From the NCBI RefSeq assembly GCF_030687535.1, contig NZ_CP117437.1:372001-436000 (forward strand): 64,000 nt of DNA, in the 5' to 3' direction. The number at the start of each line of letters is the position of its first letter. The stretch's first letter is position 1. The translations under genes and the position numbers were made by a program. This document shows positions 42,723 to 58,363 of the stretch, in pieces. The notes under the pieces were generated by a model. That model was not told the origin of the DNA and did no database searches. It worked only from the letters and a program-made list of their open reading frames with translations. This DNA comes from Pseudomonas sp. FP2335 (GTDB lineage Bacteria > Pseudomonadota > Gammaproteobacteria > Pseudomonadales > Pseudomonadaceae).

Positions 42723-44087
42723 TTAACCGAGCAGGTCCTTCAGTACTTGGGTGAATGCGCGATTGCTGTCTTCTTCGTCAGCGTGCCGACCCTCCCGCAC
42801 CACCCACTTCCCGTTCACCAGCACATCCCGCACCTGCCGATCCCCACCGGCAAACAACCAGCGATTGAGAATGCCATCGTCGCTCGCCGTCGCCAGGTAC
42901 GGATCATTGCCGTCCAGCACCAGCCAATCCGCGCGTCTACCCACCTCCAATCGACCAATCGGTTGGCCCAGCGCCTGTGCGCCGCCGTCCAGTGCCGCAT
43001 CAAACAGCGTGCGGCCCACCATCGGTTGATCGCTGCGATACAAACGGTTGCGCCGCTGATCCCGCAGGCGCTGGCCGTATTCCAGCCAACGCAATTCCTC
43101 CACCACGCTCAACGACACATGGCTGTCGGAACCAATCCCCATGCGCCCGCCTTGCGCGAGAAAGTCTACCGCCGGGAAAATCCCGTCACCCAGGTTCGCC
43201 TCAGTGGTCAGGCACAGCCCGGCAATCGCCCGGCTCTTGGCCATGCGCGCGACTTCATCCGCATCGGCATGAGTGGCATGCACCAGGCACCAGCGTTCAT
43301 CCACTGCAACATTGTCGTACAGCCATTGCAGCGGGCGCTTGCCGCTCCAGGCCAGGCAGTCGTCGACTTCCTTCTGTTGCTCGGCGATGTGGATATGCAC
43401 CGGGCAGGCTTTGTCGCTGGCGCTCAGCACTGCGCTGATTTGTGACGGCGTGACCGCGCGCAGCGAGTGGAAACACAGCCCCAACTGCTGCGCCGGTTGC
43501 GCGGCGAGGATGGGCTGCAGGCGCGCTTGCAGTTCCAGATAGCTTTCAGTGCTGTTGATAAACCGTCGCTGGCCCTCATTCGGTGCCTGGCCGCCAAACC
43601 CGGAGTGGGTATAGAGCACTGGCAGCAACGTCAGGCCGATGCCGCTGCTGGCCGCCGCCTGGCTGATCTGGCGTGACAACTCGGTACGGTCGGCATACGG
43701 CTGGCCGTTGACGTCATGGTGCACGTAGTGGAATTCGGCCACCGAGGTGTAGCCGGCCTTGAGCATTTCGATATACAGCTGGCGCGCGATCACCTGCAAT
43801 TGCTCTGGGCTGATCTTGCCGACCATGCGGTACATCAGCTCGCGCCAGGTCCAGAAACTGTCGTTCGGGTTGCCTGCCACTTCGGCCAAACCGGCCATCG
43901 CACGTTGGAAAGCGTGGGAGTGCAGGTTCGGCATGCCCGCCAAAACCGGGCCTCTCAGCCGTTCGGCGCCGTCTGCGTTGGCATTGGCCGCAACCTTTGT
44001 CAGCAGGCCATCGGCGCTGACTTCAAGACGTACATCATTGGCCCATCCATTAGGCAGCAGTGCGCGTTCGGCAAAGAAAGCGGACAT
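42723..44087 (-). CDS. hutF: Formimidoylglutamate deiminase
   Basis: HutF deaminates N-formimino-L-glutamate to N-formyl-L-glutamate and ammonia, the step that defines the five-step histidine pathway. The 454-residue amidohydrolase-superfamily protein has metal motif NLHSHAFQRAM near residue 57, later HIAEQQKEVDDC and HATHADADE histidines, and the Asp of GIGSDSHVSLS. It is divergent from hutCD, sharing a 108-bp regulatory gap with a HutC operator. HutG downstream completes the route. Confidence 0.96.
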   Translation of the reverse strand: MSAFFAERALLPNGWANDVRLEVSADGLLTKVAANANADGAERLRGPVLAGMPNLHSHAFQRAMAGLAEVAGNPNDSFWTWRELMYRMVGKISPEQLQVIARQLYIEMLKAGYTSVAEFHYVHHDVNGQPYADRTELSRQISQAAASSGIGLTLLPVLYTHSGFGGQAPNEGQRRFINSTESYLELQARLQPILAAQPAQQLGLCFHSLRAVTPSQISAVLSASDKACPVHIHIAEQQKEVDDCLAWSGKRPLQWLYDNVAVDERWCLVHATHADADEVARMAKSRAIAGLCLTTEANLGDGIFPAVDFLAQGGRMGIGSDSHVSLSVVEELRWLEYGQRLRDQRRNRLYRSDQPMVGRTLFDAALDGGAQALGQPIGRLEVGRRADWLVLDGNDPYLATASDDGILNRWLFAGGDRQVRDVLVNGKWVVREGRHADEEDSNRAFTQVLKDLLG

Positions 44088-44195: not shown

Positions 44196-44945
44196 GTGCC
44201 GACTCCGCCCGCCAACTCTTCGCTGGCTGCCCACATGGACGAAAGTCCGGCGCCCTTGTATGCCCGCGTCAAACAGATGATCAGCCAGCAGATCCTCAAC
44301 GGCAATTGGCCGCCCCATTACCGCGTGCCGTCGGAGAGCGAACTGGTCAGCGAGCTGGGCTTCAGCCGCATGACCATCAACCGCGCCCTGCGTGAGCTCA
44401 CCGCCGAAGGGTTGCTGGTGCGAATGCAAGGCGTCGGTACGTTCGTCGCCGAACCCAAGAGTCAGTCAGCGCTGTTTGAAGTGCACAACATTGCCGACGA
44501 GATCGCCTCCCGCGGTCACCGGCACACCTGCCAGGTCATCCACCTGGGCGAAGAGGCCGCCGGTTCCGAGCGCGCCGTCGCCTTGGAAATGCGCGAAGGC
44601 GGGCGGGTGTTCCACTCGTTGATCGTGCACTTCGAAAACGATATTCCGGTGCAAATCGAAGACCGTTTCGTCAATGCCCTGGTAGCGCCGGAATACCTGC
44701 AACAGGATTTCACCCAACAAACCCCCTACGCCTATCTGAACCAGGTCGCACCGTTGACCGAAGGCGAGCATGTGGTCGAGGCGATCCTTGCCGACGCCTC
44801 CGAGTGCAAGTTGCTGCAAATCGAACCCGGCGAACCCTGCCTGTTGATTCGTCGCCGCACCTGGTCGGGCCGCCAGCCGGTGACCGCCGCACGTTTGATC
44901 CACCCCGGCTCGCGCCACAGTCTCGAAGGACGTTTCAGCAAATGA
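44196..44945 (+). CDS. hutC: Histidine utilisation repressor HutC
   Basis: HutC represses hut genes and is released by urocanate. The 249-residue GntR/HutC-subfamily protein has a winged helix (about residues 25-95; RVPSESELVSELGFSRMTINRALREL) and a UTRA effector domain (about 105-245). I chose GTG at 44196 because AGGA lies eight bases upstream; ATGs at 44166 and 44235 are alternatives. Its stop overlaps the hutD start (ATGA). Confidence 0.93.
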   Translation: MPTPPANSSLAAHMDESPAPLYARVKQMISQQILNGNWPPHYRVPSESELVSELGFSRMTINRALRELTAEGLLVRMQGVGTFVAEPKSQSALFEVHNIADEIASRGHRHTCQVIHLGEEAAGSERAVALEMREGGRVFHSLIVHFENDIPVQIEDRFVNALVAPEYLQQDFTQQTPYAYLNQVAPLTEGEHVVEAILADASECKLLQIEPGEPCLLIRRRTWSGRQPVTAARLIHPGSRHSLEGRFSK

Positions 44946-45845: not shown

Positions 45846-47516
45846 GTGACCAAGCCTACTAAATACCGTGACGTAGAAATCCGCGCCGCCCACGGTAACA
45901 AGCTCACCGCCAAAAGCTGGCTGACTGAAGCGCCGCTGCGCATGCTGATGAACAACCTCGACCCACAAGTGGCCGAGAACCCGAAAGAACTGGTGGTGTA
46001 CGGTGGCATTGGCCGTGCGGCGCGCAACTGGGAGTGCTACGACCAGATCGTCGAAAGCCTCACCAACCTGAACGACGACGAAACCCTGCTGGTGCAATCC
46101 GGCAAGCCGGTCGGCGTGTTCAAGACCCACAGCAACGCCCCGCGCGTACTGATCGCCAACTCCAACCTGGTGCCGCACTGGGCCAGCTGGGAACACTTCA
46201 ACGAACTGGATGCCAAGGGCCTGGCCATGTACGGCCAGATGACCGCCGGCAGCTGGATCTACATCGGCAGCCAGGGCATCGTCCAGGGCACCTACGAAAC
46301 CTTCGTCGAGGCCGGGCGCCAGCATTACAACAGCGACCTGACCGGCCGCTGGGTGCTCACCGCCGGCCTCGGTGGCATGGGCGGTGCACAACCGCTGGCG
46401 GCTACCCTGGCCGGCGCGTGCTCGCTGAACATCGAGTGCCAGCAGGTCAGCATCGATTTCCGCCTGGCCAGCCGCTACGTCGACGAGCAAGCCACCGACC
46501 TCGATGACGCCCTGGCGCGCATTGCCAAATACACCAAGGAAGGCAAGGCGATCTCCATCGCGCTGCTGGGCAATGCCGCCGAAATCCTGCCGGAACTGGT
46601 CAAGCGCGGCGTACGCCCGGACATGGTCACCGACCAGACCAGCGCCCACGACCCACTCAACGGCTACCTGCCCGCCGGCTGGACATGGGACGAATACCGC
46701 GCCCGCGCCAAGACCGAACCGGCCGCCGTGATCAAGGCCGCCAAACAGTCGATGGCCGTGCATGTCAAAGCCATGCTGGACTTCCAGAAACAAGGCATTC
46801 CGACCTTCGACTACGGCAACAATATCCGTCAGATGGCCCAGGAAGAAGGCGTGGAAAATGCCTTCGACTTCCCTGGCTTCGTCCCGGCCTACATCCGCCC
46901 ACTGTTCTGCCGTGGCATCGGCCCGTTCCGCTGGGCGGCCCTGTCCGGCGACCCGCAGGACATCTACAAGACCGACGCCAAAGTCAAAGAGCTGATCCCC
47001 GACGACGCCCACCTGCACAACTGGCTGGACATGGCCCGCGAGCGCATCAGCTTCCAGGGGCTGCCGGCGCGCATCTGCTGGGTTGGCCTGGGCCAGCGCG
47101 CCAAACTCGGCCTGGCGTTCAACGAAATGGTACGCAGCGGCGAGCTGTCGGCGCCGGTGGTGATCGGCCGTGACCACCTCGACTCCGGCTCGGTGTCCAG
47201 CCCGAACCGTGAAACCGAAGCCATGCAGGACGGTTCCGACGCTGTGTCCGACTGGCCACTGCTCAACGCCTTGCTCAATACCGCCAGCGGCGCGACCTGG
47301 GTTTCGCTGCACCACGGCGGCGGTGTGGGCATGGGCTTCTCCCAGCACTCCGGCATGGTGATCGTCTGCGACGGCACCGACGAAGCGGCCGAGCGGATTG
47401 CCCGCGTGCTGCACAACGACCCGGCGACCGGAGTGATGCGTCACGCCGATGCCGGTTACCAGATCGCGATCGACTGCGCCAAAGAGCAGGGCCTCAATCT
47501 TCCGATGATCAAGTAA
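45846..47516 (+). CDS. hutU: Urocanate hydratase
   Basis: HutU hydrates urocanate to imidazolonepropionate using tightly bound NAD+ as electrophile. The 556-residue protein has the NAD-binding glycine-rich [14 protein letters not shown] near residue 178, the conserved Cys-containing [13 protein letters not shown] near residue 353, and the C-terminal [17 protein letters not shown]. The GTG start is set by GAGGAG at 45830-45835. It opens the main hut run and its promoter carries sigma-54 and HutC sites. Confidence 0.98.
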
Positions 47517-47674: not shown

Positions 47675-49123
47675 ATGGCTGCAAATGACACCACCCCGTT
47701 GATCGAGAAACGTTCGATCGACTACATCCCGGAAGCGGAAAGACACGGTCGTCTGTTCAGCCAATTCACCCTGTGGATGGGGGCCAACCTGCAGATCACC
47801 GCGATTGTCACCGGGGCCCTGGCCGTGGTGCTGGGCGGTGATGTGTTCTGGTCGTTGATCGGTCTGTTGATCGGCCAACTGATCGGCGGTGGCGTGATGG
47901 CGTTGCATGCGGCGCAAGGGCCCAAGTTGGGCCTGCCGCAGATGATCTCCAGCCGGGTGCAGTTCGGGGTGTACGGCGCGGCGATTCCGATTGTGCTGGT
48001 GTGCCTGATGTACCTCGGGTTCACCGCCACCGGCACCGTGCTGTCCGGCCAGGCGCTGGGCCAGTTGTTTGGCGTCAGCGACAGCGTCGGCATCCTGATC
48101 TTCGCCAGTGTCATCGTGCTGGTCACGGTGCTCGGTTACCGGGTGATTCACTTCATCGGCCGCGTCGCCAGCGTCATTGGGGTGATCGCCTTTGTTTATC
48201 TGTTCAGCCGCCTGATGGGCCAGACGGACGTGGGTGCACTCCTGCAAATCCGTCACTTCAGCTGGAGCAGCTTTTTGCTCGCGGTGTCGCTCGCGGCGTC
48301 CTGGCAAATCGCCTTCGGCCCTTACGTGGCGGACTACTCGCGTTACCTGCCAAGCCGCACGTCGTCGGTGAAAACCTTCCTCGCCGCTGGCGCAGGTTCG
48401 GTGATCGGCGCCCAGGTGGCGATGATCCTCGGCGTGTTTGCCGCCGCCATGTCCAACGGCCAGTTCGCCGGGCATGAAGTGGCCTACATTGTCGGCTTGA
48501 GCGGCACGGGTGCCACGGCTGCGCTGTTGTACTTCAGCATCGCGTTCGGCAAGGTGACCATCTCCACGCTGAACTCCTACGGCAGCTTCATGTGCATCGC
48601 GACCATCATCAGCGGCTTTCGTGGTCGCCTGGAGGTCACGCGCCTGCAGCGCCTGGTGTTTGTGCTGGCCATCGTGGGTACGGCGACCCTGATCGCACTG
48701 CTCGGCCAGCACTCGTTCCTCGGCGCGTTCAAGTCGTTCATCTTGTTCCTGCTGGCGTTCTTCACGCCCTGGAGCGCGATCAACCTGGTGGACTACTACT
48801 GCATCACCCGCGAGCGCTATGACGTGCCGGCGCTGGCCGACCCCAATGGCCGCTACGGTCGCTGGAACCTGCTGGGTATCAGCGTCTATGTGTTCGGTGT
48901 GCTGGTGCAGTTGCCGTTCATCTCCACCAAGTTCTACACCGGCCCCCTGGTGGCCGCCCTGGGTGACGTGGATATTTCCTGGATCATCGGCCTGGTACTG
49001 CCCGCCGCCCTGTATTACGTGTGTGCGAAAAAATGGCACGGCAGCGTGCCCGATCAATTGATCCTGCCGGTAGAGCAGGGCGCTGCACCAACGACGACAA
49101 ACGGGCTGGTTGCACAAGCCTGA
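47675..49123 (+). CDS. NCS1-family permease of the hut locus (urocanate transporter HutTu-like)
   Basis: The 482-residue protein has about twelve membrane helices and NCS1 (cytosine/purine permease) features. These include WMGANLQITAIVTGALAVVLG in the first helices, QFGVYGAAIPIVL, and FVLFLLAFFTPWSAINLVDYYCITR late. In SBW25 the codB-like gene after hutU is described as a urocanate transporter; position and family agree here. RBS-like AGAGG precedes ATG. The next gene, hutX, starts 69 bp later. Confidence 0.82.
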   Translation: MAANDTTPLIEKRSIDYIPEAERHGRLFSQFTLWMGANLQITAIVTGALAVVLGGDVFWSLIGLLIGQLIGGGVMALHAAQGPKLGLPQMISSRVQFGVYGAAIPIVLVCLMYLGFTATGTVLSGQALGQLFGVSDSVGILIFASVIVLVTVLGYRVIHFIGRVASVIGVIAFVYLFSRLMGQTDVGALLQIRHFSWSSFLLAVSLAASWQIAFGPYVADYSRYLPSRTSSVKTFLAAGAGSVIGAQVAMILGVFAAAMSNGQFAGHEVAYIVGLSGTGATAALLYFSIAFGKVTISTLNSYGSFMCIATIISGFRGRLEVTRLQRLVFVLAIVGTATLIALLGQHSFLGAFKSFILFLLAFFTPWSAINLVDYYCITRERYDVPALADPNGRYGRWNLLGISVYVFGVLVQLPFISTKFYTGPLVAALGDVDISWIIGLVLPAALYYVCAKKWHGSVPDQLILPVEQGAAPTTTNGLVAQA

Positions 49124-49192: not shown

Positions 49193-50158
49193 ATGAAAAT
49201 GCATAAGACCCTGTTGGCCACCTTGTTCTCTGCTGGCGTGCTGGCATCAGCCGGTGCCCAGGCAGCCGGCTGGTGCGAGTCTGGCAAGCCGGTGAAGTTC
49301 GCCGGGCTGAACTGGGAAAGCGGCATGTTGCTAACCGACATCCTGCAAACCGTGCTGGAAAAAGGCTACGACTGCAAAACCGACAGCCTGCCAGGCAACT
49401 CCATCACCATGGAAAACGCCCTGAGCAGCAACGACATCCAAGTGTTTGCCGAAGAATGGGTGGGCCGCAGCGAAGTCTGGAACAAGGCCGAGAAGGCCGG
49501 CAAAGTCGTCGGCGTCGGCGCCCCGGTGGTGGGGGCTATCGAAGGCTGGTACGTGCCGCGCTACGTGATTGAAGGCGACGCCAAGCGCAAGCTGGAAGCC
49601 AAGGCCCCGGGCCTGAAAAACATCGCCGACCTGGCCAAGTACGCCGCCGTGTTCAAGGACCAGGAAGAACCGTCCAAAGGCCGTTTCTACAACTGCCCGG
49701 CCGGTTGGACCTGTGAGCTGGACAACAGCGAAATGCTCAAGAGCTACGGCCTGGAAAGCACCTACACCAACTTCCGCCCGGGTACCGGCCCGGCGCTGGA
49801 TGCGGCGGTGTTGTCGAGCTACAAGCGTGGCGAGCCGATCCTGTTCTACTACTGGTCGCCAACGCCGCTGATGGGCCAGGTCGATCTGGTCAAGCTGGAA
49901 GAAAAACCCGGCGTGGATAAAAGCGTGAGCATCAAGGTCGGCCTGTCCAAGACCTTCCACGAGCAGGCCCCGGAACTGGTGGCCGTGCTGGAAAAGGTCA
50001 ACCTGCCAATCGACCTGCTGAACCAGAACCTGGGGCGCATGGCCAAGGAACGAATTGAGTCGCCGAAACTGGCGAAGATCTTCCTCAAGGAACATCCTGA
50101 AGTCTGGCACGCCTGGGTGAGTGAAGACGCAGCCAAGAAAATCGACGCGGCCTTGTAG
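49193..50158 (+). CDS. hutX: Histidine-type ABC transporter substrate-binding protein HutX
   Basis: The 321-residue periplasmic protein has a signal peptide (MKMHKTLLATLFSAGVLASA) and a ProX/OpuAC-like fold (VKFAGLNWESGMLLTDILQ at the start; RFYNCPAGWTCELDN in the middle). Proteins of this class bind histidine, betaine or proline betaine; hut context points to histidine. The ATG at 49193 has GGGAG upstream and yields the signal peptide, so the upstream extension to 49130 is rejected. It starts the hutXWV transporter set. Confidence 0.9.
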   Translation: MKMHKTLLATLFSAGVLASAGAQAAGWCESGKPVKFAGLNWESGMLLTDILQTVLEKGYDCKTDSLPGNSITMENALSSNDIQVFAEEWVGRSEVWNKAEKAGKVVGVGAPVVGAIEGWYVPRYVIEGDAKRKLEAKAPGLKNIADLAKYAAVFKDQEEPSKGRFYNCPAGWTCELDNSEMLKSYGLESTYTNFRPGTGPALDAAVLSSYKRGEPILFYYWSPTPLMGQVDLVKLEEKPGVDKSVSIKVGLSKTFHEQAPELVAVLEKVNLPIDLLNQNLGRMAKERIESPKLAKIFLKEHPEVWHAWVSEDAAKKIDAAL

Positions 50159-50230: not shown

Positions 50231-51078
50231 ATGTTTCCTGAGAGTTTTACGTTTTCCATCGCCGACTGGGTCAACGGTTGGGTGGACTCACTGGTCACCA
50301 ACTACGGCGATGTGTTCCGGCACATCTCCGACACCCTGTTGTGGGCCATCGTCAACCTGGAAGGGCTGCTGCGCACGGCGCCCTGGTGGCTGATGCTGGC
50401 CATCGTCGGCGCTGTCGCCTGGCACGCCACGCGCAAGGTCGTGACCACGGCGGTGATCGTCGGTTTGCTGTTTCTGGTGGGGGCGGTCGGCCTGTGGGAC
50501 AAGCTGATGCAGACCCTCGCGCTGATGATGGTCGCCACGGTGATCTCGGTGCTGATCGGCATTCCGCTGGGCATCCTCTCGGCACGCAGCAATCGCCTGC
50601 GTTCGGTGCTGATGCCACTGCTGGACATCATGCAGACCATGCCCAGCTTCGTGTACTTGATCCCGGTACTGATGCTGTTCGGCCTGGGCAAGGTCCCGGC
50701 GATTTTCGCCACGGTGATCTACGCCGCGCCACCGCTGATCCGCCTGACCGATCTGGGCATCCGCCAGGTCGACGGCGAAGTCATGGAAGCCATCAACGCT
50801 TTTGGTGCCAACCGCTGGCAGCAACTGTTCGGCGTGCAACTGCCGCTGGCGCTGCCTAGCATCATGGCCGGGATCAACCAGACCACCATGATGGCCCTGT
50901 CGATGGTGGTGATCGCCTCGATGATCGGTGCCCGTGGCTTGGGTGAAGACGTACTCGTCGGCATCCAGACCCTCAACGTCGGGCGTGGCCTTGAAGCCGG
51001 CCTGGCGATCGTGATTCTCGCAGTGGTCATCGACCGCATTACCCAGGCCTATGGTCGTCCACGGCATGAGGCGAGCAA

Positions 51079-51082
<4 letters not shown>
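50231..51082 (+). CDS. hutW: Histidine ABC transporter permease HutW
   Basis: The 283-residue permease has six or so membrane helices and the ABC-2-unrelated BPD_transp_1 EAA loop ([27 protein letters not shown]). It is ProW-like. The start is the ATG at 50231 ([14 protein letters not shown]) with GAGAG upstream; a TTG six codons earlier is less likely. Its stop overlaps the hutV ATG (ATGA). Confidence 0.93.
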
Positions 51083-51903
<821 letters not shown>

Positions 51904-51932
51904 GCCAAGAAATGCGGTGCGGCTGCTGGCCT

Positions 51933-51999
51933 CTTCGCGGGCAAGCCCGCTCCCACACTTGGAATGCATTCCCCCTGTGGGAGCGGGCTTGCTCGCGAA
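51933..51999. repeat. REP pair in reverse arrangement
   Basis: TTCGCGGGCAAGCCCGCTCC at the left and its near complement at the right point outward around a short centre with GGAATGCATTCC. Same arrangement as the pair at 32082-32163. It lies between hutV and hutH1. Confidence 0.88.
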
Positions 52000-52040
52000 G
52001 ACGTCGGCAACGCTGCACAAGAATCAACGAAGGTATGAAG

Positions 52041-53549
52041 ATGTCCCAGCCAACAAAAATCACTATCGCGGATACGCCATTGCACTGGCAGGACGTGGTC
52101 GCCGTCGCCCGCCACGGTGCGGTCCTCGAACTCTCCGGCCAGGCCTGGGCACGCATCGACAACGCCCAAGCCATCGTGCAGCGCATCGTCACCAGCGGCG
52201 AGCGTGCCTACGGGGTGAACACCGGCCTGGGCGCGTTGTGCAATGTCTCGCTCGCCGGCGAGCAACTCAGCCAGCTGTCTCGCAACACCCTGCTCAGCCA
52301 CGCCTGCGGCGTCGGCCCGGTGCTCAGCGACGAGCAGACCCGCGCGATCATCTGCGCCGCCATCATCAATTACAGCCAGGGCAAATCCGGCCTGCACCCG
52401 CAGGTGGTGCACGCGTTGCTGGCACTGCTCAACCACGGCATCACGCCGCAAGTGCCGTCCCAGGGTTCGGTGGGTTACCTGACCCATATGGCCCATGTCG
52501 GCGTGGCGCTGCTGGGTGTCGGCACGGTGAGCTATCGCGGGCAGATCGTTCCGGCGCAACAGGCCCTGAGCGCCGAAGGCTTGCAGCCGGTGGTGCTGGG
52601 CGCCAAGGACGGCCTGTGCCTGGTCAACGGCACGCCGTGCATGACCGGCCTGAGCTGCCTGGCCCTGGCTGATGCGCACCATTTACTGCAATGGGCCGAC
52701 GTCATCGGCGCCATGAGTTTCGAGGCTCTGCGCGGCCAGATCGACGCGTTCGATGAGCACATCATCGCCCTCAAGCCGCACCCCGGCATGCAGCACGTCG
52801 GCAGCAATTTGCGCGCGTTGCTCGACGGCAGTGAAGTGATCGCCAGCAGCAAAGGCCTGCGCACCCAGGACGCGTTGAGCATCCGCTCGATCCCGCAGAT
52901 CCACGGCGCCGCCCGCGATCAAGTCGAGCACGCCACGCGCCAGATCGAAACCGAACTCAACAGTGCCACCGACAACCCGCTGCTGCTCGGCACGCCGGAG
53001 AATTACCGCGTCGTATCCCAGGCCAACCCCCACGGTCAGTCGGTCGCGCTGGCGGCGGATATGCTCGCCATCGCCATGGCCGAGATCGGCTCGGTGGCCG
53101 AGCGTCGCCTGGACCGCCTGATCAACCCCCATGTCAGCGGCTTGCCGGCGTTTCTCGTCAGTAACCCCGGGGTCAATTCCGGGATGATGATCGTGCAGTA
53201 CGTCGCCGCGTCCCTGTGCGGGCAGAACCGCCAGCTGGCGCAACCGGCGGTGCTCGACAATTTCGTCACCTCGGGCCTGCAGGAAGACCACTTGAGCATG
53301 GGCACCAACGCCGCACTCAAGCTGCACCAGGTGCTGGCCAACGTCACCCAGATCCTTGCCATCGAGTACCTGCTGGCGGCCCAGGCGTTTGAATTCCTCA
53401 AGGACCGGCGCTTCGGCGCCGGCACCGACCGCGCCTGGCGCTTGCTGCGTGAAGTCGTCCCAGCCTATGAGCAGGATCGCTGGCTGGCGCCGGATATTGC
53501 CGCTGCCGCCCAGTTGCTCAAAGACACCGCATTACCCGATTTGCACTAA
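52041..53549 (+). CDS. hutH1: HutH1, histidine ammonia-lyase paralogue lacking the MIO triad
   Basis: The 502-residue protein aligns with aromatic amino-acid lyases along its length ([38 protein letters not shown]). The MIO site is altered: QGSVG (residues 141-145) runs directly into YLTHMAH, where HutH2 has [15 protein letters not shown], so exactly Ala-Ser-Gly is missing. Catalytic Tyr (HutH2 Tyr281) is Leu279 and Phe (HutH2 Phe330) is Pro330, while the active-site Glu region QEDH is kept. Without MIO it should not deaminate histidine by the known mechanism. The ATG at 52041 has AAGG seven bases upstream. It ends 23 bp before hutH2. A regulatory or heteromeric role is inference. Confidence 0.9.
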
Positions 53550-53572: not shown

Positions 53573-55105
53573 GTGACTGCGCTAAACCTGATCCCCGGCC
53601 AACTGAGCCTTGCCCAACTGCGGGCCATCTACCAGCAGCCGGTGACCCTCAGCCTGGATAACAGCGCCTCGGCGCAGATCGAAGCCAGCGTGGCGTGTGT
53701 CGAGCAGATTCTCGCCGAGAACCGCACCGCCTACGGTATCAACACCGGTTTCGGCCTGCTGGCATCGACCCGTATCGCCAGTGAAGACCTGGAAAACCTC
53801 CAGCGGTCCCTGGTGCTGTCCCATGCCGCCGGTGTGGGCGAGCCGATCAGCGATGCGCTGGTGCGGCTGGTCATGGTGCTCAAGGTCAACAGCCTCAGCC
53901 GGGGCTTCTCCGGGATTCGTCGCCAGGTGATCGACGCGTTGATCGCGCTGATCAACGCCGAGGTGTATCCGCACATTCCGTTGAAAGGCTCGGTGGGGGC
54001 TTCCGGCGACCTGGCGCCGTTGGCGCACATGTCCCTGGTGCTGCTGGGCGAAGGCAAGGCGCGCTACAAGGGCGAATGGCTGCAAGCCAGCGACGCGCTC
54101 AAAGTCGCCGGTCTGACCCCGTTGACCCTCGCCGCCAAAGAAGGCCTGGCGCTGCTCAACGGCACCCAGGTGTCTACCGCGTATGCCCTGCGCGGCCTGT
54201 TCGAAGGCGAAGACCTGTTTGCCGGCGCACTCGCCTGCGGCGGCCTTACCGTGGAAGCGGTGCTGGGTTCGCGCTCGCCGTTCGACCCACGTATCCACGC
54301 GGCGCGTGGCCAGCGGGGGCAGATCGATGCGGCCGCGGCCTATCGCGACCTGCTGGGCGAAAGCAGCCAGGTGTCGCAGTCGCACCAGAACTGCGACAAG
54401 GTCCAGGACCCGTACTCCCTGCGCTGCCAGCCGCAAGTCATGGGCGCCTGCCTGACCCAGTTGCGCCAGGCAGCCGAAGTGCTCGTGGTGGAAGCCAATG
54501 CCGTGTCGGATAACCCGCTGGTGTTCGCCGCCGAAGGCGACGTGATTTCCGGCGGTAACTTCCACGCCGAGCCGGTGGCCATGGCCGCCGATAACATGGC
54601 GCTGGCCATCGCTGAAATCGGCTCCCTCAGTGAGCGCCGCATCTCGTTGATGATGGACAAGCACATGTCCCAACTGCCGCCGTTCCTGGTCGGCAATGGC
54701 GGGGTCAACTCCGGCTTCATGATCGCCCAGGTGACTGCCGCCGCACTCGCCAGCGAAAACAAGGCACTGGCCCATCCCCACAGCGTCGACAGCCTGCCGA
54801 CCTCCGCCAACCAGGAAGACCACGTATCCATGGCCCCGGCTGCCGGCAAGCGTCTGTGGGAAATGGCCGAGAACACCCGTGGCATCCTGGCCGTGGAGTG
54901 GTTGGCCGCATGCCAGGGCCTGGACCTGCGCGAAGGCCTGAAAACCTCGCCGAAGCTGGAACAGGCGCGTGGCATCCTGCGCAGCAAAGTGGCGTTCTAC
55001 GATAAGGACCGCTTTTTCGCGCCGGACATCATCGCCGCCAGCGAACTGCTCGCCAGCCGCTGCCTCAACGAGCTGCTGCCGGCCCAGTTGCTGCCGAGCC
55101 TGTAA
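53573..55105 (+). CDS. hutH2: Histidine ammonia-lyase HutH2 (canonical)
   Basis: HutH2 eliminates ammonia from histidine to give trans-urocanate. The 510-residue protein carries the full catalytic set: MIO-forming Ala143-Ser144-Gly145, Tyr in YGINTGFG, Tyr281 in VQDPYSLR, Phe330 in GGNFHAEP, and the Glu in [10 protein letters not shown]. Numbering is one above the P. putida enzyme. The start is GTG after AGGAGTAGGA; an ATG-TGA pair overlaps it out of frame. It lies 23 bp after hutH1. Confidence 0.98.
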
Positions 55106-55211: not shown

Positions 55212-56417
55212 ATGAAAACGCTATGGCAACACTGCCACATTGCGACCCTGGCCCACGGCAAATACTCGATCATCGAGGATGGGGCTCTGGTCACGGCAGG
55301 ATCGCTGATTGAATGGATCGGCCCACGCAGCGACGTGCCCGCAGCGGACTACAGCGCTATCCATGACCTGCAAGGCGCCTGGGTGACCCCCGGGTTGATC
55401 GACTGCCACACCCACACGGTGTTCGGCGGCAATCGCAGCGGCGAATTCGAGCAGCGCCTTGAAGGCGTGAGTTACGCCGAGATCGCCGCCAAGGGTGGCG
55501 GTATTGCCAGCACCGTGCGCGCCACCCGTGCCGCCAGCGAAGATGAGCTGTTCGACAGCAGCCACAAACGCCTGCGCAGTTTGTTGCGCGACGGTGTGAC
55601 CACGGTGGAGATCAAGTCCGGCTACGGCCTGGACCTGGCCAATGAACGCAAGATGCTGCGGGTGGCCCGTCGCCTCGGCGAGGCACTGCCGGTCAGCGTG
55701 CGTGCCACCTGCCTGGCGGCCCATGCGTTGCCGCCGGAGTACAAGGACCGCGCCGACGACTACATCGAGCACATCTGCGGCGAAATGCTGCCGGCCCTGG
55801 CGGCGGAAGGGCTGGTTGACGCGGTGGATGCGTTCTGCGAATACCTGGCGTTTTCCACCGAGCAGGTGGAGCGCGTGTTCAAGGTCGCGCAACAACTGGG
55901 CTTGCCGGTCAAGCTGCATGCCGAGCAGCTCTCGTCACTGCATGGTTCCAGCCTGGCGGCGCGTTACCAGGCGTTGTCGGCGGATCACCTGGAATTCATG
56001 ACCGAAGCAGACGCCATCGCCATGGCCGCCGCCGGCACCGTCGCCGTGTTGCTGCCGGGCGCGTTCTACTTCCTGCGGGAGACCCAATTGCCGCCGATGG
56101 ATGCCCTGCGCAAACACGGTGTGAAGATCGCCATCGCCAGCGACCTCAACCCCGGCACCTCGCCGGCGTTGTCGGTGCGCCTGATGCTGAACATGGCCTG
56201 CACCCTGTTCCGCATGACCCCGGAAGAAGCCCTGGCCGGCGTCACCCAGCACGCGGCCACCGCCCTGGGCATGGGCGATACCCACGGTTCGTTGGAAGTA
56301 GGCAAGGTCGCCGACTTTGTCGCCTGGCAGATTGATCGCCCGGCCGACCTGGCTTACTGGCTGGGCGGCGAGCTGGATAAACGCGTCGTGCGCCATGGCG
56401 TCGACGTCACCGTCTAA
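55212..56417 (+). CDS. hutI: Imidazolonepropionase
   Basis: HutI hydrolyses 4-imidazolone-5-propionate to N-formiminoglutamate. The 401-residue amidohydrolase has metal motif [13 protein letters not shown] near residue 70, the conserved [23 protein letters not shown] near residue 237 and Asp in [11 protein letters not shown] near 315. The ATG at 55212 follows CGGAGG. The frame is open far upstream into hutH2 but this is the family start. It is followed 11 bp later by hutG. Confidence 0.97.
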
Positions 56418-56428
56418 GGAGCAATGCT

Positions 56429-57229
56429 GTGGATAAGGTTCTGAACTTCAAACGAGGCCGCGTGCCGCTGCTGATCAGCATGCCCCACGCCGGCCTGCGC
56501 CTGACGCCTGCGGTGGCGGCCGGGCTGATCCCCGAGGCGCAAAGCCTGCCGGACACTGACTGGCATATCCCGACGCTGTATGACTTTGCCGAGGACCTCG
56601 GCGCCAGCACCCTGGCTGCCGAATATTCGCGCTTTGTGATCGACCTGAACCGCCCGTCCGACGACAAGCCGCTGTACGTCGGTGCCACCACCGGGCTGTA
56701 CCCGGCGACGCTGTTCGACGGCGTGCCGCTGTTCCGTGAAGGCCTGGAACCGAGCAAGGCCGAGCGCGCCACCTATCTCGAGCAGATCTGGGGCCCGTAC
56801 CACCAGACCCTGCAAGACGAACTGACGCGGCTCAAGGCCGAGTTCGGCTACGCCTTGCTCTTCGATGCCCACTCGATCCGCTCGGTGATCCCGCACCTGT
56901 TCGACGGCAAGCTGCCGGACTTCAACCTCGGCACCTTCAACGGCGCCGCTTGCGACCCCGCGCTGGCCAGCCAGCTGGAAGCCATCTGCGCCGAGCATCC
57001 GCAATACACCCACGTGCTGAACGGGCGCTTCAAGGGCGGGCACATCACCCGTCACTACGGCAACCCGGCGCAGGACATTCATGCGGTGCAGCTGGAGTTG
57101 GGGCAGTGCACGTACATGGAAGAGGTCGAGCCGTTTCGGTATCGGGCGGATCTGGCTGAGCCGACGCGGGTGGTGCTCAAGCAGTTGCTGGAACGGTTGT
57201 TGGCCTGGGGGCAACAGCGTTACGGCTGA
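56429..57229 (+). CDS. hutG: N-formylglutamate deformylase
   Basis: HutG hydrolyses N-formylglutamate to glutamate and formate, the last step of the five-step pathway. The 266-residue protein has the FGase signature LLISMPHAGLRLTP near residue 10, LFDAHSIRS near residue 148 and HITRHYGNPAQDIHAVQLELGQCTYM near the C-terminus. The start is GTG with GGAG seven bases upstream; an out-of-frame ATG at 56424 is too close to the ribosome site. It ends the hut run. Confidence 0.96.
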   Translation: MDKVLNFKRGRVPLLISMPHAGLRLTPAVAAGLIPEAQSLPDTDWHIPTLYDFAEDLGASTLAAEYSRFVIDLNRPSDDKPLYVGATTGLYPATLFDGVPLFREGLEPSKAERATYLEQIWGPYHQTLQDELTRLKAEFGYALLFDAHSIRSVIPHLFDGKLPDFNLGTFNGAACDPALASQLEAICAEHPQYTHVLNGRFKGGHITRHYGNPAQDIHAVQLELGQCTYMEEVEPFRYRADLAEPTRVVLKQLLERLLAWGQQRYG

Positions 57230-57427: not shown

Positions 57428-58363
57428 ATGCAAAAAACCTTGTTGAGCTTGATCGGCGCCGCACTGCTCAGTGCGCAAGCCATGGCCGCCGAGCCGGCTT
57501 CCTGCAAAACCATCCGCATGGGCGTGGTCAGCTGGACCGATGTGGTGGCCACCTCCGGCATGGCCGATGTGCTGCTCAACGGCCTGGGCTACGACAGCAA
57601 GCAGACCAGCGCCGTACAGCAGATCATCTTTGCCGGCATCCGCGACAAGCGCCTGGATGTTTTCCTCGGCTACTGGAAACCGGCGATGGACAACAATATC
57701 GCACCGTTCCTCGCGGCCAAGCAGGTCAAGGTCTTCGATACCCCCAGCCTGGCCGACGCCCAGGCCACCCTGGCGGTGCCGCAGTACGTGGCGGACGCCG
57801 GGCTGAAGACCTTCGCCGACATCTCGCGTTTCAAGGATAAGCTGGGCGGCAAGATCTACGGCATCGAGCCCGGCAGCGGCGCCAACACCGACATCCAGAA
57901 AATGATCGACACCGACCGCTTTGGCCTTGGCGGCTTCAAGTTGGTCGCTTCCGGCGAGGCGGGCATGCTGGCGGCGGTGCAGCGCGCGGTGAATCGCAAG
58001 GAATTCGTGGTCTTTGTCGGTTGGACCCCGCACCCGATGAACATCAACCTGCAGATGGCCTACCTCACCGGCAGTGAAGACGTATTCGGCCCCGACGAAG
58101 GCCGCGCCACGGTGTCCACCGTCACCGCACCGGACTTCGCCGAGCGCTGCCCGAATGCCAATCGCCTGTTGCAGAACCTCACCTTCACCGCCGCCCAGGA
58201 AAGCCAGTTGATGGTGCCGATCATGGAGCGCCAATCGCCGCAGGATGTGGCCAGGCAGTGGCTGCGCGATCATCCCGAGGATGTGCAGCGTTGGTTGGCC
58301 GGGGTCACGGCGTTTGATGGCCAGGATGGCGTGGCAGCCGTACAAGCCAGCCTCAAGCCCTGA
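57428..58363 (+). CDS. Orphan choline/betaine-type ABC substrate-binding protein
   Basis: The 311-residue periplasmic protein has a signal peptide (MQKTLLSLIGAALLSAQAMA) and an OpuAC-type fold like choline-binding ChoX/CbcX (MGVVSWTDVVATSGMADVLLNGLGY; GYWKPAMDNN; VGWTPHPMNINL). The Trp residues of these segments usually form the aromatic box for a quaternary ammonium. No permease or ATPase is adjacent, so it may share a core transporter, as choline, carnitine and betaine binding proteins do in P. aeruginosa. ATG with CCACCCCC upstream has a weak ribosome site. Confidence 0.82.
   Translation: MQKTLLSLIGAALLSAQAMAAEPASCKTIRMGVVSWTDVVATSGMADVLLNGLGYDSKQTSAVQQIIFAGIRDKRLDVFLGYWKPAMDNNIAPFLAAKQVKVFDTPSLADAQATLAVPQYVADAGLKTFADISRFKDKLGGKIYGIEPGSGANTDIQKMIDTDRFGLGGFKLVASGEAGMLAAVQRAVNRKEFVVFVGWTPHPMNINLQMAYLTGSEDVFGPDEGRATVSTVTAPDFAERCPNANRLLQNLTFTAAQESQLMVPIMERQSPQDVARQWLRDHPEDVQRWLAGVTAFDGQDGVAAVQASLKP

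Follow-up and report, generated by a model that had tools for sequence, protein, structure and literature searches.

The analysed stretch of the Pseudomonas sp. FP2335 genome (the window, 64,000 nucleotides) contains a hut cluster in which two proteins of the histidine ammonia-lyase (HAL) family, HutH1 and HutH2, are encoded by genes spaced by 23 bp, preceded by the genes of HutU, an NCS1-family permease and the transporter HutXWV and followed by those of HutI and HutG (Table 1). The name hutTu for the permease comes from PMC8871633, which in the part consulted describes it as a urocanate transporter. HutU is the single urocanase-family protein of the FP2335 genome, and its scores were below the cut-offs of the models NF058530 (690 bits vs 930) and NF058531 (705 bits vs 880).

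Table 1. Genes and sites of the hut cluster in the window; positions are counted from its first letter
Feature	Position	Strand	Remarks
HutF, formimidoylglutamate deiminase	42723..44087	-	TIGR02022, 745 bits
HutC, repressor	44235..44945	+	TIGR02018, 318 bits
HutU, a true urocanate hydratase rather than a thiourocanate hydratase	45846..47516	+	TIGR01228, 1016 bits (cut-off 375)
NCS1-family permease (hutTu in the literature)	47675..49123	+	PF02133
HutX, OpuAC betaine-type substrate-binding protein	49199..50158	+	PF04069, 209 bits
HutW, ProW/ChoW-type permease	50231..51082	+	PF00528; TIGR03416, 294 bits (below the cut-off of 363)
HutV, ProV-type ATPase	51079..51903	+	TIGR01186, 363.8 bits (above the cut-off of 326.6)
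HutH1	52041..53549	+	502 aa; PF00221, 560 bits; loop without ASG; alternative ATG at 52035
HutH1 Gly145-Tyr146 codons	52473..52478	+	site where Ala-Ser-Gly(-Asp) of HAL is missing
HutH2, histidine ammonia-lyase with MIO-forming ASG	53573..55105	+	TIGR01225, 729.6 bits
HutI, imidazolonepropionase	55212..56417	+	TIGR01224, 486.8 bits
HutG, N-formylglutamate deformylase	56429..57229	+	TIGR02017, 398 bits

The region between hutV and hutH1 is occupied by a strong inverted repeat of the REP-pair type (51922-52015; fold energy of 51926-52030, -66.5 kcal/mol), and its core, GGGAGCGGGCTTGC, is present within the window in 8 copies on the plus and 7 copies on the minus strand. Just past hutG a second OpuAC protein, of the ChoX type, is encoded (57428-58363; TIGR03414, 434.8 bits, above the cut-off of 379). 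Besides hutH1 and hutH2, the genome has a third gene of the PF00221 family (L003, G000:C1:508428-509780), in which GASGD is kept; its best NCBIfam model was BagA_FevW, with 415.5 bits far below the cut-off of 1000.

The alignment of HutH1 with HutH2 showed that the MIO loop, GASGD in HutH2, is shortened to GY in HutH1, with the gap between G145 (codon 52473) and Y146 (codon 52476), exactly where it had been placed by an earlier note on this DNA made from the sequence alone. The two substitutions reported there were also present, namely L279 (codon 52875) at the position of HAL Tyr280 and P330 (codon 53028) at that of Phe329, together with the retained Glu of the QEDH motif (E415, codon 53283). 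The statement that the three cofactor residues make the sole length difference did not hold, since the proteins also differed at their ends and by two further indels of 2 residues each, a gap near QNCDKVQD and an insertion near PENYRV. A fourth residue, HAL Asp145, is gone as well, the ASGD of HAL being replaced by a single Y. HAL (1B8F of P. putida; HutH2 in FP2335) possesses MIO, Asp145, Tyr280 and Phe329, while HutH1 has none of them, with Leu at 280 and Pro at 329. The catalytic set of HAL was taken to comprise Tyr53, His83, Asn195, Gln277, Tyr280, Arg283, Phe329 and Glu414; Tyr280 and Phe329 were thereby assumed to be active-site residues, and the presumed roles of the other six were likewise transferred from HAL. 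These six were kept in HutH1 as Tyr57, His87, Asn196, Gln276, Arg282 and Glu415. Among 175 homologues, comprising 55 locus proteins selected by the GY loop and 120 protein clusters not so selected, the same six residues were invariant (175/175), and Tyr280 and Phe329 were replaced in every case, the former by Leu throughout and the latter by Pro in 165 and Ala in 10. The AlphaFold model of HutH1 (mean pLDDT 93.5) and the alignment together gave the HAL fold without MIO, a feature of ergothionase.

Since the 55 locus sequences lack ASG by construction, the unselected evidence for its conserved loss came from three other sets. ASG was missing in all 120 closest clusters (82-95% identical to HutH1; the best 120 of 6228 matches in a protein search at E<=1e-60), in which the GY loop was recognised by a regular expression in 119 and read from the alignment in the last one, all being confirmed on the alignment. 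It was also missing in 80/80 named-genome loci (the best 80 of 402 relatives, P. aeruginosa not among them) and in every distinct homologue of at least 46% identity examined after duplicates had been dropped. HutH1 was carried by 104 of the 149 Pseudomonas genomes sampled, and homologues of at least 47% identity were present in 23 of the 398 genomes of a phylum-wide sample, some of them beyond the genus, the order and the class; a class-wide survey at E<=1e-115 matched only 2 of 369 genomes and added nothing. The median dN/dS (omega) of HutH1 was 0.104 (33 sequences, 527 pairs), with no internal stops, which is more than twice the value of 0.044 obtained for HutH2 (528 pairs, partial gene): HutH1 is clearly constrained, albeit less tightly than HAL. 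The loss is therefore conserved, and no orthologue carrying ASG, which would have pointed to a strain-specific defect, was met in the 120 clusters or the 80 loci. With the loop shared by all of these and an omega of about 0.10 reflecting purifying selection, a pseudogene is rejected, and a defect of this strain or a sequencing error, the latter already discounted in the earlier note, has a vanishingly small probability.

The public name HutH of this protein is due to its passing the HutH models, TIGR01225 by a margin of only 3.5 bits (542.7 bits vs the cut-off of 539.15) and NF006871 with 558.3 bits (cut-off 524), and in sequence it resembles HAL more (323 bits with 1b8f) than ergothionase (236 bits). 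Nevertheless, HutH1 is not a member of the MIO-dependent HALs, because the defining Ala-Ser-Gly tripeptide is absent.

A lyase of this family can work without MIO. Ergothionase (ergothioneine trimethylammonia-lyase) takes trimethylamine off ergothioneine and is known from T. denticola and Burkholderia sp. HME13. The T. denticola enzyme (PDB 6S7J) is stated to lack MIO in the part of PMC13405746 consulted, and the claim of the earlier note that all known HAL/PAL/TAL enzymes need MIO leaves out this solved member of the family. Similar to 6S7J (GEGD loop, QDPLSFR), HutH1 has no MIO and has Leu at the position of Tyr280, so that two of its three losses recur in an enzyme which is active with trimethylamine as the leaving group. 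On the other hand, the two are about 29-31% identical and belong to separate clades; where HutH1 has a lone Y, the GEGD loop of ergothionase retains the Asp plus two residues, and ergothionase has the Lys of IQK and no NGT Asn, while HutH1 has the NGT Asn and VQY, with Tyr in place of Lys. The combination typical for the ergothionase group, a G-E/C/A-x-D loop with the conserved Lys (xxK) and without the NGT Asn, was thus not found in HutH1. In a tree of 62 rows picked by thinning, with an unknown root and some long branches of the ergothionase type, HutH1 was placed outside the clade of 6S7J, in a GY clade of 28 rows (support 100/99) apart from both HAL and the ergothionase group; addition of the lyase L078:585 as a 29th row lowered this support to 58/22.

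The latter protein (L078:585-2132, genome G502) is a PF00221 member without MIO and of yet another, third kind; it has GEGSVGYLGPEGHL, but in its QDVYSLRA the Tyr is retained. It is 37% identical to HutH1, and its gene lies directly 3' of a polar-amino-acid ABC ATPase gene. Second GY-type lyases, 49% identical, were encountered in the region L079:8166-15292 (G440) and in L078 (G502). Near them a GbcA-like Rieske oxygenase (L079; 585.7 bits, cut-off 670), a ferredoxin reductase, an MR_MLE enolase, an Ldh_2 dehydrogenase (L079) and a LysR regulator are encoded, and judging from this gene content the neighbourhood looks like a betaine-demethylation cluster.

The partner genes also differ. HutH1 is located by a true urocanase, whereas ergothionase-type lyases were found near thiourocanate hydratase where the latter was present. 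Of 24 genomes carrying HutH1 or a relative from the GY clade (8 of the 24 having only the second GY subclade), 4 had a thiourocanate hydratase scoring above the cut-off, and FP2335 had none above it; in all four a separate ergothionase-type lyase, 27-35% identical to 6S7J, was encoded 1.5-4.6 kb from it. These four lyases (L085-L088 in G107, G253, G043 and G440) have G-C/E-x-D loops and the conserved Lys, and G440 possesses an ergothionase-type lyase, HutH1 and a second GY lyase together. In G308 the ergothionase-type gene is located about 2.5 kb from that of HutH1, which has a BCCT gene alongside; in this genome (L089 / L067) QAT-like ABC genes and the ergothionase-type lyase adjoin the hut cluster bearing HutH1. 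Clade, motif and partner gene, although not activity, thus led to the rejection of HutH1 as an ergothionase proper. A functional ergothionase acting on ergothioneine, S-methyl-ergothioneine or ergothioneine sulfonate would agree with the common family, the MIO loss and the Tyr-to-Leu change shared with 6S7J, and with HutX being of the OpuAC type, given that the ergothioneine binder EgtU also belongs to a quaternary-amine transporter family (PMC9732360, part consulted). Such an activity is nevertheless unlikely, considering that the few genomes with thiourocanate hydratase have their own ergothionase-type lyase close to it, that S-methyl-thiourocanate hydratase was above the cut-off in 0 of 16 genomes tested, that G308 carries both genes side by side, and that the Lys of the group is replaced by Tyr. 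HutH1 would be ergothionase-like in its working, but it stands outside the ergothionase clade and is without the defining feature of HAL.

HutH1 was associated with transporters. A HutX orthologue (match of at least 74% identity, matches of 50-55% being excluded) was present in 95 of the 104 HutH1-positive Pseudomonas genomes and in 1 of the 45 HutH1-negative ones (the two occurred together in 95 genomes and were both missing from 44, while 9 had just HutH1 and 1 had just HutX; Fisher p about 1e-27 with kinship ignored). In all 95, HutX was located upstream of HutH1 on the same contig and strand, with the starts 2673-3527 bp apart; HutX distance was the quantity measured in these genomes, and full neighbourhoods were read in two sets of loci, one of 20 and one of 10. 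In the named-genome set (best 80 of 402), hutV was directly 5' of hutH1 in 79 of 80 loci, the remaining one ending at a contig edge. The nine HutX-negative exceptions comprised three with a BCCT carrier directly upstream of HutH1 (G437, G459, G527), two with a polar-amino-acid ABC transporter in this place (G476, G514), three in which HutWV was still directly upstream (G420, G447, G481) and one with HutWV and a hutX stub only (G490). Beyond Pseudomonas, a transporter was directly upstream at 14 of 16 HutH1 loci, being of the HutXWV type at 4, BCCT at 2 and a polar-amino-acid ABC at 8, the last characterised by SBP_bac_3 and not a betaine carrier; L065 and L076 (2/16), as well as the second copies in L078 and L079, had no upstream transporter. 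In G439, the sole genome with HutX and without HutH1, hutC-hutXWV was present and HAL was not detected at E<=1e-115; this genome did not reveal an alternative substrate.

Hence, in Pseudomonas and some other lineages the transporter adjacent to HutH1 belongs to the QAT ABC (ProVWX, ChoXWV) or BCCT families. HutX contains the OpuAC binding domain of QAT betaine transporters (PF04069, 209 bits), and its W87, W170 and W219 align with W65, W140 and W188 of E. coli ProX (1r9l), which we take to be the cage positions; the three Trp were kept in 10/10 HutX-like proteins aligned. The W..SW.PF sequence, which we assume to be the BetP motif, was missing in 5/5 BCCT proteins examined. In ProX, the Trp side chains make a cation-pi contact with the trimethylamine group (PMC9732360, part consulted). 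An aromatic cage for quaternary ammonium in HutX is suggestive only, because the ChoX-type choline binder of the window has two of the three cage Trp, with the middle one missing. In contrast to the betaine QAT carriers, HutXWV is described in the literature as a histidine transporter, with a share in the uptake of histidine by SBW25 (PMC8871633, part consulted).

HAL was found in 139 of the 149 Pseudomonas genomes, including 104/104 with HutH1, at a threshold (E<=1e-115) not reached by HutH1 itself, and 35 of the 139 HAL-bearing genomes had no HutH1. In at least 12 HutH1 genomes (G405, G453, G514 and G531, for example) HutH2/HAL was separated from HutH1 by hundreds of kb or lay on a different contig. 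Six such genomes were read (G405, G420, G447, G481, G514, G531), and HutH1 still adjoined a transporter in all of them, being near hutU in five and near hutI and hutG in four. These distributions weigh against the reading favoured in the earlier note, according to which HutH1 is a pseudo-enzyme serving as a mixed-tetramer partner, a urocanate/histidine sensor or a modulator of HutH2. HALs are tetramers, MIO is absent from HutH1, its gene is only 23 bp from that of HutH2 in FP2335 and its omega is above that of HutH2, all of which would suit such a role; however, invariance of the six catalytic residues in 175/175 homologues is not expected without catalysis, and HutH1 tracks betaine-type transporters, not HutH2. 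A pseudo-enzyme is therefore improbable, while the conserved loss stood and so did the 'other chemistry' which the same note had offered as an option.

The statement of the earlier note that hutH1 was dispensable on histidine in SBW25 agrees with PMC8871633, the consulted part of which reports that hutH1 is not required on this substrate. In P. aeruginosa, a mutant in PA5093, called hutG, was impaired on histidine and urocanate (PMC12772324, part consulted). In the relatives L060 and L061, HutH1 is the neighbour of hutI on the side of hutU, and from this gene order PA5093 is suspected to be the HutH1 orthologue, in which case its phenotype would be evidence against dispensability.

Hercynine (histidine betaine, N,N,N-trimethyl-L-histidine) is made by fungi and mycobacteria. 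It is listed among the soil quaternary ammonium compounds in the consulted part of PMC8550315. A single cluster thus combines an importer of the betaine type, a true urocanase and a lyase that is MIO-free and of the trimethylamine-eliminating type, which points to hercynine as the substrate, and we predict, with fair though far from full confidence, that HutH1 is an active MIO-free HAL/PAL-family lyase eliminating trimethylamine instead of ammonia from a quaternised histidine, most likely this compound. Hercynine would be imported by HutXWV and converted by HutH1 to urocanate and trimethylamine, and HutU, HutI, HutF and HutG would finish the breakdown of urocanate by the ordinary hut pathway. 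On chemical reasoning, MIO serves to make NH3, in itself a poor leaving group, depart readily, while trimethylammonium would already be a good leaving group, unable to attack MIO and in need of room instead of activation. Loss of ASG(D), Tyr280 and Phe329 would free space for the three methyl groups, and Tyr57, His87, Asn196, Gln276, Arg282 and Glu415 would keep the base and the contacts with the imidazole and the carboxylate. The chance is a little better than even that in many Pseudomonas the hut operon has received hutXWV-hutH1 as a self-contained module for the use of hercynine, which bypasses histidase and in which HutH1 belongs to a new clade of MIO-free lyases.

Several observations speak against the hercynine reading: HutXWV is called a histidine transporter in SBW25 (PMC8871633, as above), some lineages have a polar-amino-acid ABC, which is not of the betaine type, and the BCCTs do not have the exact BetP motif, HutH1 is closer to HAL than to ergothionase by score, passes the hutH models and has an omega more than twice that of HutH2, and the PA5093 mutant has a phenotype on histidine (PMC12772324, as above), provided that PA5093 is HutH1. 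HutH1 might act on another small imidazole compound, for instance by isomerising cis- and trans-urocanate or by an elimination with N-dimethylhistidine or imidazole-lactate derivatives as substrates. For such action the neighbouring NCS1 permease, a urocanate transporter according to the consulted part of PMC8871633, and the polar-amino-acid ABC transporters, not being betaine-specific, may be quoted. The cage Trp of HutX and the replacement of HutXWV by BCCT carriers point instead to a trimethylammonium group, and we consider such alternative substrates about as improbable as a pseudo-enzyme.

Neither a hercynine lyase nor a function for HutH1 was found in the open-licence literature, most subscription papers being outside the scope of the search. 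Among the 120 closest clusters, many bear the name 'histidine ammonia-lyase' from their source, although they do not have the HAL-defining cofactor. If the prediction is true, it would provide a dedicated catabolic route for hercynine, none having been found in the same open-licence literature, and would explain the apparent dispensability of hutH1 and hutXWV on histidine. HutH1 would then be a second lyase freeing trimethylamine from a histidine derivative and, next to HutH2, a natural comparison of one fold with and without MIO. The MIO-free trimethylammonia-lyases would, in that case, be spread over several distinct clades, with a different urocanase as the partner of each.
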